Assembly: GCA_903869075.1 (NCBI GenBank)
Contig: CAIPXZ010000540.1
Coordinates: 1 to 43,450, forward strand
DNA from: an uncultured Myxococcales bacterium
GTDB taxonomy: Bacteria > Myxococcota_A > UBA9042
Length of the DNA: 43,450 bases
Direction of reading: 5' to 3'
Within the stretch, counting starts at the first letter, position 1. Every line of letters starts with the position of its first letter. Shown in pieces: positions 31,586 through 40,255 of the stretch. The notes below the pieces were generated by a model. That model was not told where the DNA came from and did not search any database. It saw only the letters and a program-made list of their open reading frames with translations. The translations under genes and the position numbers were made by a program.

Positions 31586-32863
31586 CTATTTGCGCGGCGG
31601 CAGCGCTGGCGTCGTCGGCGGCGCCGGCAGGTGGGGTGGCTGCGGCTGCGGCGGCGGCGCGGGCGTCGCCAGCTGCGCTGCGGCCTCGACGACGGGGTGA
31701 CCGGCGTGCTGCCAGGCAAAGATGCCTTCATCCAACACCGCGGTATTCTTGAACTTGCGCTTGCGCAGCTCATCGACGATCACGCCTGACGCGTGGTGCG
31801 GGCAGGCGCAATAGGCGATGACCCAGGTGCCATCGTTGGGGATCTTGTCCAGCTCGCCCGGCTCGTAGTACGGCACCGAGACCGCGCCGGTGATGTGCAA
31901 CCGCAGGAAATCCGACGGCGCGCGGGCGTCGACGATGACGATCCGCCGCTTGTTCTTCAGCGCGTCCGCGACCTCCTGCAGCGGCACAAGCCGATCGTCT
32001 TTCATCTTCAGATCCGCGGGCTTGCCGTTGGGATTGATGACGATCGGTCCGGTCAGCTTGGGCGCCGACTCCAGGCCCGGCATCTGCGCCGCCTGCGCAG
32101 TCTGCGTTACCACCGCCGGCAGCGGCGCGTGCCACGGCACCGGCGGCGCCGGCGGCACGCTCGTCGCCATCGAGCGCAAATAGGCGATCGCGTCGTCGAT
32201 TTGCTGCTCCGTCAGCTTGCCCGTCCACGGGTCCATTTTGGTGCCCGGCCGGCCTTTTTGGATGGCGTAGCGCAAGAAGCTGTCCTTGACCGACGCCAGC
32301 AGCTGCGGGTTGAACAGGTGCACCGCGCTGCCGCGCTGCGTCGTCCAGCCGTGGCAGGATGCGCACTGGGTCATGTACACCGTCTGGCCGCGGCCCACGG
32401 CGCCGGCGTTGGGCTTCTCGGCCAGCAGCACCGTCGGCGGCTGCGGCTGCGGCGGCGCGACGCGGCGGGTGTAGCCGATGATGGCGTCGATGTCCGCCGG
32501 TGCCAGCGGCCCGCCGACTTCCTGGGCATACGCCGCCATCGCCGTGCCGGGCCGACCGCGGGCGATCGACGTGCGCAGGAATTCCGTGCTCGCCGTCTCG
32601 CGAAACGTCCGGGAGACGAGCGACGGCGCGTTGTCGGCGGCGTAGCCTTCGGCGTTCTTGCCATGGCACAGCGCACAGTATTTCAGGAACAGCTGTTGGC
32701 CTTTGGCGGCCTCAGCCAGCGTCGGCGCATCGGCGGGCGAAGCGGGCGCGGGCAGGCTGACCGCATCGTCGACAGCGGCGCCGGCATCGGCACCGGTCGG
32801 CGCCGCCGCGCGCGCGCACGCCAGCGGGGTCAGGAGAGCCAACAAAAGCAGGAGACGAGACAT
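31586..32863 (-). CDS. Diheme c-type cytochrome-rhodanese fusion lipoprotein
   Basis: MSRLLLLLALLTPLACA lipobox; two heme motifs CALCHGKNAEG and CASCHGWTTQRG; rhodanese-like VDARAPSDFLRLHITGAVSVPYYE...VIAYCACPHHASGVIVDELRKRKFKNTAVLDEGIFAWQHAGHPV; GAGG SD. Confidence 0.87.
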   Translation of the reverse strand: MSRLLLLLALLTPLACARAAAPTGADAGAAVDDAVSLPAPASPADAPTLAEAAKGQQLFLKYCALCHGKNAEGYAADNAPSLVSRTFRETASTEFLRTSIARGRPGTAMAAYAQEVGGPLAPADIDAIIGYTRRVAPPQPQPPTVLLAEKPNAGAVGRGQTVYMTQCASCHGWTTQRGSAVHLFNPQLLASVKDSFLRYAIQKGRPGTKMDPWTGKLTEQQIDDAIAYLRSMATSVPPAPPVPWHAPLPAVVTQTAQAAQMPGLESAPKLTGPIVINPNGKPADLKMKDDRLVPLQEVADALKNKRRIVIVDARAPSDFLRLHITGAVSVPYYEPGELDKIPNDGTWVIAYCACPHHASGVIVDELRKRKFKNTAVLDEGIFAWQHAGHPVVEAAAQLATPAPPPQPQPPHLPAPPTTPALPPRK

Positions 32864-32932
32864 GCGATCCTCAGAGGGCCTCTGCCCTAGCCTGAGAATC
32901 CACTGAGTCGCGGCTGTGCGCAAGCCTTTGGC

Positions 32933-34471
32933 TCACAGCGCTTCGGCTTCGTGCACATAGTGCGGCTGGCCGCGCGGCGTCGCCCAGCGCTGGAACAGCG
33001 CCATTTCAAAGGGATCCGCGCGGTGGATGCGCTCCATCAGAAAATCGAAAATGCCCATGTGCTTCTGGCAATACGTGCTGTCCGCCATGCGGCCATGGAT
33101 GCTGCCTTGCTCGCAGTAGTTGTGCACCGGGCAGACGCCGCACCACGGCTTGTAGACGCAGCTGCTGCAGCCGGGCTGCGCTTCCAGCGTCGAGGCCATG
33201 ACCATCGAGCGCACGGTCGGGCTGCTGACCACGTCGCGGTAGCGGCTGGCGTCGGCGCCGTCACCGGTGCCATGCACGTTGCCGATCTGGAAGCAGTCGT
33301 CGCCGCTGCGATCGACCATCCGCCCTTCGTCGCAGGTGAAAAGTCGGCCGTCGTGGCCGTACGCCAACTGGCCGATGCCGGCGCCGCACGGGCTGCGGAT
33401 GTCCAGGTAGTTCGGCTCGGTGTTGCCGATGATTTTGCTGAACAAAAGCGCGGCGGTGCGCTCGACCATGTCCTTGCCGTTGCGGTTCATGTCGACGATG
33501 TGCAGGAACGTGTCGCGATAGAACGCCAGGAAATCTTCCATCGAATAGCCCAGCCGCGAGCGGATCGTCGCGCCCCAGCCAAACGGGTCGAGGTTGCGCA
33601 AGAAGATGCTCTTGCATCCCAATGCGTTGTAATGGTTCACTAATTCCTTGCCGCGCGCCAACGTCTGCTTGGTAATCGTCGGCAGCGCCTCGATGTGGTA
33701 GAGGTGCGGATCCATGCCGGCGTCGACGTAATGCTGGTTGATGCGGCGGATCCAATCCACGGTCGTGTCGTGCGATTTGCCGTCTTTCCAAATGCGCTGG
33801 CCGTCGTGCAGATCCGCCGGACCGTCGAGCGACGTGCAAATTTGCACCCGCCGATCAATGAGATACGCCAGCTTTTCCTCGTCCATCAGGCTCAGGTTCG
33901 TCACCAGCGCGAACATCAGCGACTTGCCCGCCAGCGCATTTTTCTGCCGCGCGTATTCGATGATGTGCTCGACGACCGGCCAGTTCGCCAGCGGTTCGCC
34001 GCCCTGGAACTCAATGGTCAGGCTCGGCGACGTCGTCTCAAAGGCAAAATCGACGCACCGCTCCGCCGTCTCGATGCTCATGTCCACGTCCGGCGCGTCC
34101 ATCCGCGCGCGCGAGGCGTGGCAATACTGGCAGGTGTGGTTGCAGCGCAGTGTGACGACGAAGATGTGCAGGCTCGGTCCAGCGCGCAAAAACCGGTATT
34201 TCTCCTGCAGCCGCGCGGTGATGGCGTCCTTGTCCAGCTCACGCGCCAGGAAATTGCCGGCCTTCAGCCGCGCCCGCAGCGGGTCGTCATTGGCCACGTC
34301 GCCCTTGAGAACGGCGTGATATTCGGCATTTTCGAGGAACAGGTGGTCGCCAAAATCATTGGACAGCAGCACCGCGCCGTCGACAGTGCGCTGGCGAAAC
34401 GGCACCAAATCCAGGACTTTTTGGCCGCGCACGGAGAGCGCTTCGATGGGCAGATGCGTGTGATGGCTCAT
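32933..34471 (-). CDS. Radical SAM/SPASM-type enzyme, HxsB-like (paired radical SAM maturase type)
   Basis: MSHHTHLPIEALSVRGQK...HIFVVTLRCNHTCQYCHASR...LTIEFQGGEPLANWP...TSLDGPADLHDGQRIW...CGAGIGQLAYGHDGRLFTCDEGRM...GCSSCVYKPWCGVCPVHNYCEQG; ATGA overlap with upstream gene at 34468-34471. Confidence 0.85.
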   Translation of the reverse strand: MSHHTHLPIEALSVRGQKVLDLVPFRQRTVDGAVLLSNDFGDHLFLENAEYHAVLKGDVANDDPLRARLKAGNFLARELDKDAITARLQEKYRFLRAGPSLHIFVVTLRCNHTCQYCHASRARMDAPDVDMSIETAERCVDFAFETTSPSLTIEFQGGEPLANWPVVEHIIEYARQKNALAGKSLMFALVTNLSLMDEEKLAYLIDRRVQICTSLDGPADLHDGQRIWKDGKSHDTTVDWIRRINQHYVDAGMDPHLYHIEALPTITKQTLARGKELVNHYNALGCKSIFLRNLDPFGWGATIRSRLGYSMEDFLAFYRDTFLHIVDMNRNGKDMVERTAALLFSKIIGNTEPNYLDIRSPCGAGIGQLAYGHDGRLFTCDEGRMVDRSGDDCFQIGNVHGTGDGADASRYRDVVSSPTVRSMVMASTLEAQPGCSSCVYKPWCGVCPVHNYCEQGSIHGRMADSTYCQKHMGIFDFLMERIHRADPFEMALFQRWATPRGQPHYVHEAEAL

Positions 34472-35523
34472 GGCGATTCCTTTGCGTGAACGGGCGGCGG
34501 GTCGGTGCGGGGCACGAATTCCGCCCAGCCAAAGCGATCGGGGTACTCGTGCCACGGTCCTTCGCAGGCGTACTGCCAGGTGCAGACCTCGCACGGCGGA
34601 CCGTGGGCTTTGCCTTGCTCCAAGCGGTAGCGGGCGTAGTCGCCGATGCGGACGTCGCCGTCGTACACCGTTGTGTCGGGCAAGCCGGGCTCGACGGCGG
34701 CCCATTCGCGGCCGCGCAGAAAGCAGAACGGCACAGCCTCCGTCACGGTGCTGCGGCCGGCCGCGCGCACCAAATCCAGCGCCAGTGGCAGGTGTTTTTG
34801 CACGTCGCGGTAGCGCGGTACCGTCTGGTCCCAGGTCTTGGCGGCCGTGCCCAGCGCGTGCACGAAAGCGAACTGCACCTGCCACACGCCCAGATGGACA
34901 AGCAGGTTGGCGATGTCCCGCAAATGCATCACATTCATGCGGGTGATGACGGTCTGGCTCAACACTTTCTGGTTCAATTTCTGGAGGTTGCGCAGGCCTT
35001 GAATGACTTGATTGTACGCGCCCTTGGCGCCCACCAGGCCGTCGTGCAGCGGCGCGATGTGGCCGTGCAAGCTCGGGTTGAACTCGGTCGCGCCGGCCTC
35101 GACGAGCGCCTCGGCGTAGCTCATGTACGCCAGCCGCCGGCCGTTCGTCTGCACCTGAATCAGCTTGTAGCCCAAGGACTTGGCGGCGCGGATGATCTCC
35201 GGCACGTCGTCGCGGATGCTGATCTCGCCGCCGGTCAGCAGCAGGCCATCGCAGGTCGCGCGCGCCGCTTCCAGCCGCTGAATCGCCTCTGCGGTCGTCA
35301 AATCGGCGACGTAATCGCGCTTGTCGCCCTGCACGCAAAACGTGCAGCGATTGTTGCAGCGAAAACCGAGCTTGAGGTCCAGTTTGTACGCGCGCTCCAC
35401 GCCGTCAGGTACTTGCGCCGGAAAGATCGTCTGGCCGGCGTCATTGCGGGCGGCCTCCGCGGGTGCGTGCTCGTGCGCGCACGCGTCCTGCACCACGCGC
35501 GGTTGCTGGGTTTCGCGCACCAT
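34468..35523 (-). CDS. Radical SAM enzyme with C-terminal Cys cluster
   Basis: LDLKLGFRCNNRCTFCVQGDKRDYVADLTTAEAIQRLEAARATCDGLLLTGGEISIRDDVPEII...PSLHGHIAPLHDGLVGAKGAYNQVIQG; C-terminal CEVCTWQYACEGPWHEYPDRFGWAEFVP. Confidence 0.87.
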   Translation of the reverse strand: MVRETQQPRVVQDACAHEHAPAEAARNDAGQTIFPAQVPDGVERAYKLDLKLGFRCNNRCTFCVQGDKRDYVADLTTAEAIQRLEAARATCDGLLLTGGEISIRDDVPEIIRAAKSLGYKLIQVQTNGRRLAYMSYAEALVEAGATEFNPSLHGHIAPLHDGLVGAKGAYNQVIQGLRNLQKLNQKVLSQTVITRMNVMHLRDIANLLVHLGVWQVQFAFVHALGTAAKTWDQTVPRYRDVQKHLPLALDLVRAAGRSTVTEAVPFCFLRGREWAAVEPGLPDTTVYDGDVRIGDYARYRLEQGKAHGPPCEVCTWQYACEGPWHEYPDRFGWAEFVPRTDPPPVHAKESP

Positions 35524-35635
35524 GAATCCTCCCCGCCAACGCCGCCGTCAGCTCCGGCGGGCACTTTAGCAGTCAGGCGTCGTGGACTCGACAGTCGTCT
35601 GTCACGCGCATGTCACGGCCGCGGGGGCGCGTGCT

Positions 35636-37660
35636 TTACGGGCAGGCGGCGAGGGTGCAGGCGTTCTTGGCGGCGGCCCAAGCGGCGATCTTGGCCTTGT
35701 CCGCGGCGCTCAGCGAGCTGCCCTGCGGCATGGAGCCGGACTGCACATAGCTGTTGATGAGCGAGTAGTTCGACGCCGACGAGCAGCCATTGCCGAACGT
35801 GTGGCCGTGGCAGCCGTTGCAGTTGTTCTGGAAGATCGCCTGGACGTCGGTGTACGTCGTGCACGTCTTGGCTGGGCAGTCGGCGGGGCAGTTGGCGGTC
35901 GTCTCGGTCGGCGCTTCGCACGTGCCGTTGCCGCAGACGGGCGCGGGCGGCGGGCAATCCGCCGGGCAGTTGGCCGTTGTCTCGCCCGCGTCGCAGGTGC
36001 CGTTGCCGCAGGTCGTCGGCGTGGTGCCGCCGCCGTTGCATTGCGTGCAGGTGGAGCCCGCGCAGGTCGTGCCGGTCGCGGTCCCCGCGGCGTTGCAGCA
36101 GTCGCCGTAGGTCGCGCACTGGGTGTCGCAGTAGCACGGCTTGCCGCCGACAGTGCCGCCCTGCGCGCCGCAAGCGTTGTCGCAGACGTTGCCGGCGGGC
36201 GGGGTGACGCCGCCGCCGCTGATGCAGTTGTTGTTGGCGATGCAGGTGTTCAGGTTGTTCAAGTTGTTCTTGGTCTTGTTGCTCTTGCCCGCCAGGCACT
36301 TGTTGATGCACGCCGCATCGCCGGCGGCGCACGCCTGCTCGCACTGGAAGCCCGTGCGGCAGCTGTTGCTGTTCGTGCACGCGTTGGCCTGCTGCTGGCA
36401 GTTGGTCAGGATGCAGGTGTTTTCGCTGCCGCAGTCGATCGGGCAGTTGGCCGCCGTCTCGCCGGTGTCGCACTTCAGGTTGCCGCAGGTGGCCGGCGGC
36501 GGCGTGATGGTGTCGGGGCCAGGGCCGACGGTGTCAGGACCGGGGCCGACGGTGTCGGGACCAGGGCCAATCGTGTCGGGACCGGGGCCAACGGTGTCCG
36601 GTCCGGGGCCGGTGTCGGTCGGGCCGGCGTCAGGCGCGCCGCCGGGGCACTGTCCCGGCGAGCAGACGTTCTTGCCCGCAGCCCACGCCGCGATCGTCGC
36701 CTTGTCCGCGCTGCTGAGCGAGCCGCCCTGCGGCATGGAGCCAGACTGCACATAGGCGTTGATCGACGCGTAGTTGCTGGCGGACGTGCAGCCGTTGCCA
36801 AAAGTGTGACCGTGGCAGCCGTTGCAGTTGTTCTGGAAGATCGCCTGAACGTCCTGGTAGTTCGTGCACGTCGGCGGCGGGCCGACGTCCGGCGGGCCGA
36901 TGATGGTGTCCGCGACGGTGATGCTGTCGTCCAGCACCGGGACGTCGATGCCGGGGCCGGCGTCGGGCGCGCCAATGTCGGTCGGGCCAGCGTCGGCGCC
37001 CGGGCACTTGTCCGGCGTGCAGGTGTTGTGGCCGGCCGCCCACGCGGCGATGAGCGCCTTGTCCGAGGCGCCAAGGCCGCCGCCCGGGGGCATAGCGCCG
37101 CTGCCGACGTACTGGGCGATGAGCGGATAGTTCGCCGCCGAGCTGCAGCCGTTGCCGAACTGGTGGCCGTGGCAGCCATTGCAATTGTTGACGAAAATCG
37201 TCTGCACGTCCTGATAGGTCGTGCACAGCCCGGGCTGGACTGTGCCGTCCGAGCCGCCGCTGGCGTCGGTGCCGACCGTGCTGTCGTCGACGGTGGCATC
37301 AAAACCGCTCTCGGCGTCGCTGCCGATGCCGGCGTCGTCGCTGCCGCCGCCGCCGGCGTCCACGCTGGCCGCCACGCACGTGGCCATGGTCGCGGATTGC
37401 TGGCATTTTTCGCCGATGCTGCAGGTTTGGTGGACAATCCAGGTGCCGGCGGGCGTGCACGCGAGCACGTTCTGGCCGACGCAGGCGTTGGTCGCCGTCG
37501 ACGGGTTGCAGACGCCGCCGAGGGTCGGCGTGCCGTCACCGTTGATGCCGACCGGCGCGCCGCCGGTGCTGTCCGCGCCGCACGCGGTCATGGCCAGCGC
37601 AGCGATCGCCGCGGGCAGCAGGAGGAAAGCGGAGCGGTGCAGGGTGCCAAAAGCAGACAT
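35636..37660 (-). CDS. Lipoprotein with three CxxCH-containing (putative cytochrome c) modules plus Cys-rich CGNGxCxxGETxxNCPxDC repeats
   Basis: MSAFGTLHRSAFLLLPAAIAALAMTACGADS lipobox; three copies of YQDVQxIFxNNCNGCHGHxFGNGCxSAxNY...SGxMPxGxxLxxxDKxxIAAWAA; AGGAG SD 5 nt before ATG. Confidence 0.82.
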   Translation of the reverse strand: MSAFGTLHRSAFLLLPAAIAALAMTACGADSTGGAPVGINGDGTPTLGGVCNPSTATNACVGQNVLACTPAGTWIVHQTCSIGEKCQQSATMATCVAASVDAGGGGSDDAGIGSDAESGFDATVDDSTVGTDASGGSDGTVQPGLCTTYQDVQTIFVNNCNGCHGHQFGNGCSSAANYPLIAQYVGSGAMPPGGGLGASDKALIAAWAAGHNTCTPDKCPGADAGPTDIGAPDAGPGIDVPVLDDSITVADTIIGPPDVGPPPTCTNYQDVQAIFQNNCNGCHGHTFGNGCTSASNYASINAYVQSGSMPQGGSLSSADKATIAAWAAGKNVCSPGQCPGGAPDAGPTDTGPGPDTVGPGPDTIGPGPDTVGPGPDTVGPGPDTITPPPATCGNLKCDTGETAANCPIDCGSENTCILTNCQQQANACTNSNSCRTGFQCEQACAAGDAACINKCLAGKSNKTKNNLNNLNTCIANNNCISGGGVTPPAGNVCDNACGAQGGTVGGKPCYCDTQCATYGDCCNAAGTATGTTCAGSTCTQCNGGGTTPTTCGNGTCDAGETTANCPADCPPPAPVCGNGTCEAPTETTANCPADCPAKTCTTYTDVQAIFQNNCNGCHGHTFGNGCSSASNYSLINSYVQSGSMPQGSSLSAADKAKIAAWAAAKNACTLAACP
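36509..36613. repeat. Five approximately 21-bp tandem repeats encoding GPGPDTV/I
   Basis: ggtgtcggggccagggccgac-like units repeated; protein GPGPDTVGPGPDTIGPGPDTVGPGPDTVGPGPDTI. Confidence 0.85.
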
Positions 37661-37782
37661 CGGAACTCCTCGAGCGCGGGCGCGGGCGAAAACGGGCGAA
37701 AATGGGGAATCCACACTGCCCGTTCGAGCAGTCAGATGAGTGTGAGCCTAGAAAAAAACCGGGCGAGTGCGCAAGGGTTAGT

Positions 37783-37815
37783 GCGCGAGAATGTGAACAT
37801 TCGTGAACCTCGCGC
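37783..37815. promoter_or_regulatory. Candidate operator: nested inverted and direct repeats in divergent intergenic region
   Basis: GCGCGAG(37783-37789)...CTCGCGC(37809-37815); GAATGT-GA-ACATTC (37789-37802); direct GTGAAC repeats 10 bp apart (37793, 37803). Confidence 0.4.
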
Positions 37816-37930
37816 GGAGTCGTGTGTGATGGCGGCGCCGCCGATGCGTGGCGGGTAAGCTTGCATCGCCGCGCATGGCCGTCACCGGCCGCCGCGGGAA
37901 TAGCCGTCGGTGCGGCAGGGTTGGCCAAAC

Positions 37931-39103: not shown

Positions 39104-39175
39104 GCGAGCGCGGGCTGTCACGCGGCTGTCATGCCCATCTTGACCCCGCCGCCGCTGCCACGCAGGCTAGCGGCC

Positions 39176-40255
39176 ATGACTGAAACCGCGAATCCACAGC
39201 GCATTGCCCTCTTGCCCGCCGCGCGGGCGCAGACGCCGATCCTGGAAGTGTCCCTGCCGCGCTTTGTGCCGCTGGGGCCGAATCCGCAGCCGCGGGCCCG
39301 TGAATTCGCTCAGGATTATGGCCCGTCGTTTTTTGTCGACGTCGGCACCGCGTGTCCGCTGCACTGCGTGTATTGCTCGGTGCAGCGCGGCGCGGACGAC
39401 AAGGACGTGCGCATGGAGGCGCGCGAGCACCTGTACATGCGCCTGGCCGACGGCGCGGGCGCGGGGATGCTCAAGGTCGCGTTCATCGGCGGCGAGGCGG
39501 CATCGCGCCCGGATTTCATGCACTTGGCCGACGTCGCGCACGCCATGTCCTTCGAGGACGTGATCCTGGCGACAAAAAGCGTGAAGCTGGCGCGGCCGGA
39601 ATTCGTCGCGGAGCTGCTGGCGCACAACGTGTCGATGGTGCACTTGTCGCTGGACAGCTTTGATCCCGCGGTGTTGGCCAAGCTGCTGGCCAGCCGGACG
39701 GCGCCCAAGCTGCTGCTCGCCGGGCTGCAGGAGCTGCTGCGCCAGGAGATGCAGCTGTTCCTGTTCGCGGTGCTGACGCGCCACAATCTGCCGACGCTCG
39801 ACGATTATGTGCGTTCAATTGCGGACTTGCAGCAGCAGTACGGCCGCCGGGTGCCGGCGGTTGTGGCGCCGCTGAAGCTGCAATCCCGCGCTTTGCGCCA
39901 GCGGGAAGCGCTGGTGCCACCGCTGGCGGAGGTCGGCGCGGCGGTGGCGCAGGCGATCGATCTGGCACAGCAGCTGGACGTGACGCTCATCCACAAAGCC
40001 CTGCCGTTGTGCGTGGTTCCGCGCCATGGCGCGTGGGCGCTGGAGCGCTATCTGGCGGAGGCGCGCATCGACCTCGACACCGGCGATTACCTGCCGCAGG
40101 GTCCGCACGCCTACCTCGTGCACGGTCCCGACTGTCCGGCGTGTCCGGCGCGCGCGCTGTGTCCGGGCGTGGATGTGGCGTACGCCAAGTGGCGCGGCTG
40201 GGCGGAATTCAAGCCTGCAGCGTCTGCAGCAGCGGATCCGTCGCCCGCGAGTTGA
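39176..40255 (+). CDS. Radical SAM enzyme with C-terminal Cys cluster
   Basis: PSFFVDVGTACPLHCVYCSVQRGADDKDVRMEAREHLYMRLADGAGAGMLKVAFIGGEAASRPDFMHLA; C-terminal CPACPARALCPGVDVAYAKWRGWAEFKP. Confidence 0.82.
   Translation: MTETANPQRIALLPAARAQTPILEVSLPRFVPLGPNPQPRAREFAQDYGPSFFVDVGTACPLHCVYCSVQRGADDKDVRMEAREHLYMRLADGAGAGMLKVAFIGGEAASRPDFMHLADVAHAMSFEDVILATKSVKLARPEFVAELLAHNVSMVHLSLDSFDPAVLAKLLASRTAPKLLLAGLQELLRQEMQLFLFAVLTRHNLPTLDDYVRSIADLQQQYGRRVPAVVAPLKLQSRALRQREALVPPLAEVGAAVAQAIDLAQQLDVTLIHKALPLCVVPRHGAWALERYLAEARIDLDTGDYLPQGPHAYLVHGPDCPACPARALCPGVDVAYAKWRGWAEFKPAASAAADPSPAS

Follow-up and report, generated by a model that had tools for sequence, protein, structure and literature searches.

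A coupled pair of radical SAM genes in an uncultured lake myxobacterium as a probable relocated module of a dispersed Hxs system

Two overlapping radical SAM genes in the genome of an uncultured lake myxobacterium are probably a two-enzyme module that has been relocated within a dispersed Hxs system of the RiPP type and acts on an HxsA4 peptide encoded elsewhere in the genome. Judging from the sequences, the repeats of this unlinked HxsA4 are the most likely site of modification by the pair. The genes lie in a window of 43,450 nucleotides (contig C540), analysed here together with the rest of the genome and with genomes of the same phylum.

The enzyme pair and its surroundings

The features of the locus are as follows:
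31586-32863 (-), diheme cytochrome c and rhodanese protein, flanking the pair, conserved in the genus
32933-34471 (-), HxsB, radical SAM/SPASM maturase of 512 aa, 499.9 bits against TIGR03978 (curated cut-off 370)
34468-34471 (-), ATGA stop/start overlap of the partner and HxsB genes, kept in five species
34468-35523 (-), HxsC4-like radical SAM partner of 351 aa, 162.4 bits against NF038332, below its cut-off of 500
35528-35534 (-), GGGGAGG ribosome site, in the gap before the partner gene
35561-35617 (-), promoter-like block of the pair with a putative function, conserved in five species
35636-37660 (-), triheme (CxxCH x3) Cys-rich lipoprotein, flanking the pair, in place in this genus only

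By its profile score, the 512-aa protein of the pair is HxsB, in agreement with the initial annotation, which had likened it to this family and proposed TIGR03978 as the check. It contains the radical SAM cysteines C110/C114/C117 (CxxxCxxC) and the full set of seven SPASM cysteines, among which C362, C380 and C447 are putative ligands of Aux I and C435, C438, C444 and C468 putative ligands of Aux II, an assignment based on SPASM motif order and spacing. The solved folds nearest to its AlphaFold model (pLDDT 86.7) are those of CteB (5WHY/5WGG), anSME, ChlB and TigE. The secondary structure predicted for residues 25-91 displays an N-terminal bbb-aaa segment, whose order is that of an RRE domain and which may thus be described as RRE-like.

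The best family of the partner is HxsC4 and the second is HxsC (TIGR03977; 97.6 bits for a cut-off of 267.9); since both scores fall below the curated cut-offs, it is regarded as HxsC4-like and not as a member. It displays cysteines C56/C60/C63 together with C267, C311, C314 and C320 in a Twitch-like arrangement, the motif CEGPW.EYP is invariant in the alignment of its family, and its model (pLDDT 87.4) is nearest to SkfB (6EFN), BlsE and SuiB. These profile scores and the overlap at 34468-34471, shared by the five species sampled in the genus, uphold the earlier description of the partner as a distinct radical SAM enzyme coupled to HxsB by ATGA. Across the genus, the two proteins are 91-95% identical and the gene order is fixed, so that a chance pair of open reading frames is excluded.

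In the five species, the order of genes is dcyd-like, third radical SAM, PilT-like, triheme lipoprotein, partner, HxsB, cytochrome c/rhodanese and kinase, allowing for genes missed by the searches at some loci. The third radical SAM protein of the window (39131-40255, +) is PqqE/HxsC4-like, scores below all cut-offs and occupies the same place throughout the genus with 68-69% identity. The block at 35561-35617 is composed of a GTGACA-N5-GTGACA direct repeat, GTCGAG and an extended -10-like TGnTAnAGT, and its conservation between the end of the lipoprotein gene and the beginning of the partner gene suggests that the pair has its own promoter. A local precursor was sought among small open reading frames and none fitted: the six frames of the window contain no HxS run, ORFs of at least 16 aa starting from ATG are absent from the gaps 35524-35635 and 32864-32932, and the gap 37661-37930 contains nothing but five short ORFs of 18-44 aa, all free of HxS runs.

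The other Hxs genes of the genome

The genome (6.27 Mb, 806 contigs, 89% complete) encodes further Hxs components, so that the statement of the initial annotation that no HxsA, HxsC or HxsD is recognised holds for the vicinity of the pair but not for the genome as a whole. On contig C161, a second HxsB (521 bits) lies behind an HxsC-like enzyme, HxsD (53.8 bits, cut-off 50) and an HxsD-like protein (NF038315, 69.4 bits, cut-off 41), and HxsA4 is found on contig C582. No HxsC above the cut-off of 267.9 was found in the genome, the best score being the 107 bits of the enzyme on C161. A stand-alone paralogue of the partner, with 66% identity, is located on contig C457. The Hxs parts are thus spread over three contigs (C540, C161 and C582) instead of forming a single cluster, and they are also unlinked in relatives with long contigs.

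HxsA4 was located with a DNA pattern for His-Gly-Ser arrays, which retrieved one place in the genome, on C582, where the peptide is surrounded by housekeeping genes. It is the only HxsA4 of this genome, scores 90.5 bits against NF038313 (cut-off 55) and consists of 103 aa, MKKTLPKLKKNAADFLSSEEGAISEKQEERVSTFLTLSGGDSSLLPGDVNLSAEHC(SHG)15SW, so that its C-terminal end reads HCS(HGS)15W. In relatives, small proteins that combine a leader with a (His-Gly-Ser)n-Trp tail are mostly encoded directly beside HxsB. The peptide is strictly conserved: among three congeners (G000, G050 and G060) its gene shows 15-23 synonymous codon differences and 0 nonsynonymous ones, and nearly every species sampled in the family has 15 HGS units. 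The search for HxsA with TIGR03979 retrieved from this genome only peptidoglycan-binding and similar chance matches, and the same search does find HxsA genes beside HxsB in G340, G371 and G067; on profile scores, the true precursor is a member of NF038313, not of TIGR03979. No motif common to the promoters of the pair and of HxsA4 was found. Two further observations concern the HxsA4 genes: about 75 bp before their start are almost invariant in five species (L352, upstream of 10844, -), and G181 carries two of them in tandem, with 15 and 18 HGS units (L359:2352-3413, -).

Distribution of the pair and of two HxsB forms

Among 379 genomes of the phylum, HxsB is present in 126, the HGS array in 129 and the partner family in 73. 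Array and HxsB occur together in 121 genomes, HxsB alone in 5, the array alone in 8 and neither in 245 (Fisher p 6e-82, not corrected for relatedness). Partner and HxsB, likewise not corrected for relatedness, occur together in 71, the partner alone in 2, HxsB alone in 55 and neither in 251. These co-occurrences are confounded by common ancestry, and also by the second HxsB, a copy that by itself could serve HxsA4. Each of the 25 HxsB-bearing genomes searched has an HxsD locus, and three HxsB-free controls have none. In those of the 25 with a pair, this locus sits away from it, and in HxsD clusters HxsA4 typically comes directly after HxsB.

Besides the genus, the combination of HxsB and partner with no HxsD nearby recurs in eleven genomes of several families (G378, G257, G057, G283, G072, G103, G028, G290, G195, G105 and G248), in varying orientation and mostly among housekeeping neighbours. 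These neighbourhoods derive from a simple home-made ORF caller that missed some genes (the window's third radical SAM gene among them), and the absence of small genes is therefore less certain at other loci than at the window. In a tree built from 74 HxsB proteins, at least seven changes of the label "pair" are required, all forced by well supported branches. The clade of the window-type HxsB (support 100/100) contains five pairs and seven solo copies and is sister to that of the C161-type HxsB (support 100/100); other genera of the family have the window-type HxsB as a solo gene and encode the partner family elsewhere in the genome.

The two forms differ in their cysteines. All HxsB compared retain C435, C438, C444 and C468 (Aux II), and every paired or solo window-type HxsB also has C362, C380 and C447. 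In all 19 genomes inspected that have two HxsB, one of which is partner-linked or window-type, that HxsB keeps these three cysteines, whereas the other HxsB lacks at least two of them. In G116 and G251, which are non-pair genomes, the HxsD-linked HxsB is the Aux-I-complete copy, so the loss of Aux I is not tied to HxsD alone. An Aux-I-complete HxsB is found in 37 of the 44 genomes that have the partner and in 5 of the 31 that lack it (p 4e-9, uncorrected), the remaining seven genomes with the partner having none. In G283, G072 and G103, the HxsB of the pair is the only one found, and HxsA4-type peptides and HxsD are encoded elsewhere in the genome. At the HxsD loci of these three genomes (L290, L291 and L292), an ORF of 303-307 aa follows HxsD and the HxsD-like gene, in the usual place of HxsB. 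Several HxsD clusters (L085, L086 and L098) combine an HxsA4 beside HxsB with an Aux-I-complete HxsB.

In other phyla, the partner family sits in arrays of multiple radical SAM genes with HxsD clusters. Such arrays in Patescibacteria, Elusimicrobia and Omnitrophota (L221, L244, L245, L260, L268 and L272) contain as many as about ten radical SAM genes, together with HxsD, HxsB, HxsC, partner and HxsA4-type peptides, and HxsA4-like peptides also occur in Woesearchaeota (L239). Proteins with long HxS arrays continue for hundreds of residues past the repeats at L254:1117-2793 and L272:2797-4317. Beside HxsD clusters, L085:1438-2046 and eleven similar loci encode a protein family (about 130-200 aa), several members of which carry a Tat-like signal; the L085 member, the one scanned, has no Pfam or NCBIfam match. 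At L148 and L171, HxsB or the partner lies next to a CxxCH protein, another of about 190-207 aa and a third secreted protein (PSCyt-like and DUF1501-like on visual inspection). Two candidates near solo partner genes were set aside: a TKAFAD-repeat protein (L153) with no relative among the loci compared, and a Cys-rich lipoprotein whose similarity was weak and of low complexity only.

Proposed role, alternative explanations and known systems

From gene content, protein families, co-occurrence and cysteine patterns, we infer that the pair acts on HxsA4 and propose an order of steps and a chemistry. HxsB, with ligands for both auxiliary clusters, and the Twitch-type partner would act in trans on the HCS(HGS)15W core, HxsB probably binding the HxsA4 leader through its RRE-like N-terminal segment. 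The third locus, with HxsD, the HxsD-like protein, the HxsC-like enzyme and the second HxsB devoid of the putative Aux-I cysteines, would serve the same pathway. The likely chemistry would be a cross-linking by the 5'-deoxyadenosyl radical inside each His-Xaa-Ser unit, for example from a His ring carbon to the Ser C-beta at i+2. Since triceptide enzymes use His and Ser and TvgB modifies its substrate repeat by repeat, such a His-Ser cross-link in each unit is plausible by analogy, although we regard this particular bond as rather doubtful. On a broader scale, duplicated HxsB copies may repeatedly have split the work, the Aux-complete copy with a Twitch-type partner and the Aux-I-less, usually HxsD-linked copy both acting on one unlinked, length-conserved His-Gly-Ser ribbon peptide, a generalization that we offer tentatively and with slightly more doubt than conviction.

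The pair could instead modify the adjacent cytochrome-type proteins, either the triheme lipoprotein, named by the initial annotation as a candidate substrate or partner, or the cytochrome c/rhodanese protein, in the way QhpD modifies a subunit of quinohemoprotein amine dehydrogenase. In its favour, the five species all have both flanking proteins at this position, cytochrome or cytochrome-biogenesis genes occur close to several of the family's solo HxsB genes, and the next-best family of HxsB is quino_hemo_SAM, the model of the quinohemoprotein maturase QhpD, even though its 122.9 bits fall below the cut-off of 453. We nonetheless hold this explanation to be very improbable. Neither protein has HxS repeats, and the only HxS of the lipoprotein, at residue 8, falls within its signal region. 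No gene of the block changes faster than that of the lipoprotein (58-61% identity across the genus, against 91-95% for the pair). The lipoprotein is separated from the pair by the promoter-like block, is absent beside paired or solo HxsB in other genera and appears an unlikely substrate. The other pair loci moreover have housekeeping neighbours with no common cytochrome, and HxsA4 exists in trans.

It is also conceivable, yet unlikely, that the window-type HxsB and its partner took up another unlinked protein substrate, in an anSME-like manner, and that the C161 set alone serves HxsA4. The separation of the two HxsB clades within the class, their different auxiliary-cluster ligands and the presence of HxsB, HxsD and an HxsC-like enzyme in the C161 set are consistent with this possibility. 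They are countered by the three genomes that have HxsA4-type peptides and HxsD with no HxsB other than that of the pair, and by the Aux-I-complete form in HxsD clusters with an adjacent HxsA4. The existence of a second HxsB could finally designate the pair as a redundant duplicate without distinct role, which is hardly credible given its identity within the genus, its fixed order and overlap, the retention of all catalytic cysteines and the recurrence of the pairing in distant families.

The action of a relocated module on the unlinked HxsA4 is consequently the reading that we retain. This locus suggests that Hxs enzymes need not be encoded near their precursor, and RiPP mining based on gene neighbourhoods would therefore miss such sets. 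It also provides a natural comparison between HxsB with and without Aux-I ligands, and its HxsA4, a short and strictly conserved repeat, is a candidate substrate for testing HxsB activity.

CteB (the SCIFF maturase) and anSME, the closest solved folds to the HxsB model, share only 18-20% identity with it and have different substrates. The triceptide maturases OscB, MscB, HaaB and YhhB join an aromatic residue i to the C-beta of i+2, the residues of the cross-link including Ser (MscB) and His (HaaB, YhhB) (PMC11002830). Like HxsB, these three-residue cyclophane-forming enzymes are SPASM radical SAM proteins, and their motif would fit His-Xaa-Ser; in contrast, HxsB scores far below their families, and its putative substrate is a tandem array of about 16 units. 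TvgB, which forms poly-cyclopropylglycine, is a radical SAM enzyme that modifies a short tandem repeat unit by unit (PMC9062424), but its repeat is TVGG, its enzyme family is different and its genes form a single linked cluster. The open literature searched mentions Hxs proteins with no characterised product and, within this limited search, holds no description of the dispersed layout, the recurrent two-enzyme module or the paralogue pattern. The Hxs system itself is known (TIGR03976-TIGR03979; NF038313, NF038332, NF038315), and HxsB, HxsD, the HxsD-like protein and HxsA4 exceed its cut-offs here. It differs here by its distribution over three contigs, a pair without HxsA or HxsD, two HxsB forms, and a partner and an HxsC-like enzyme below the cut-offs of HxsC and HxsC4; the split layout and the pattern of HxsB paralogues appear to be new.
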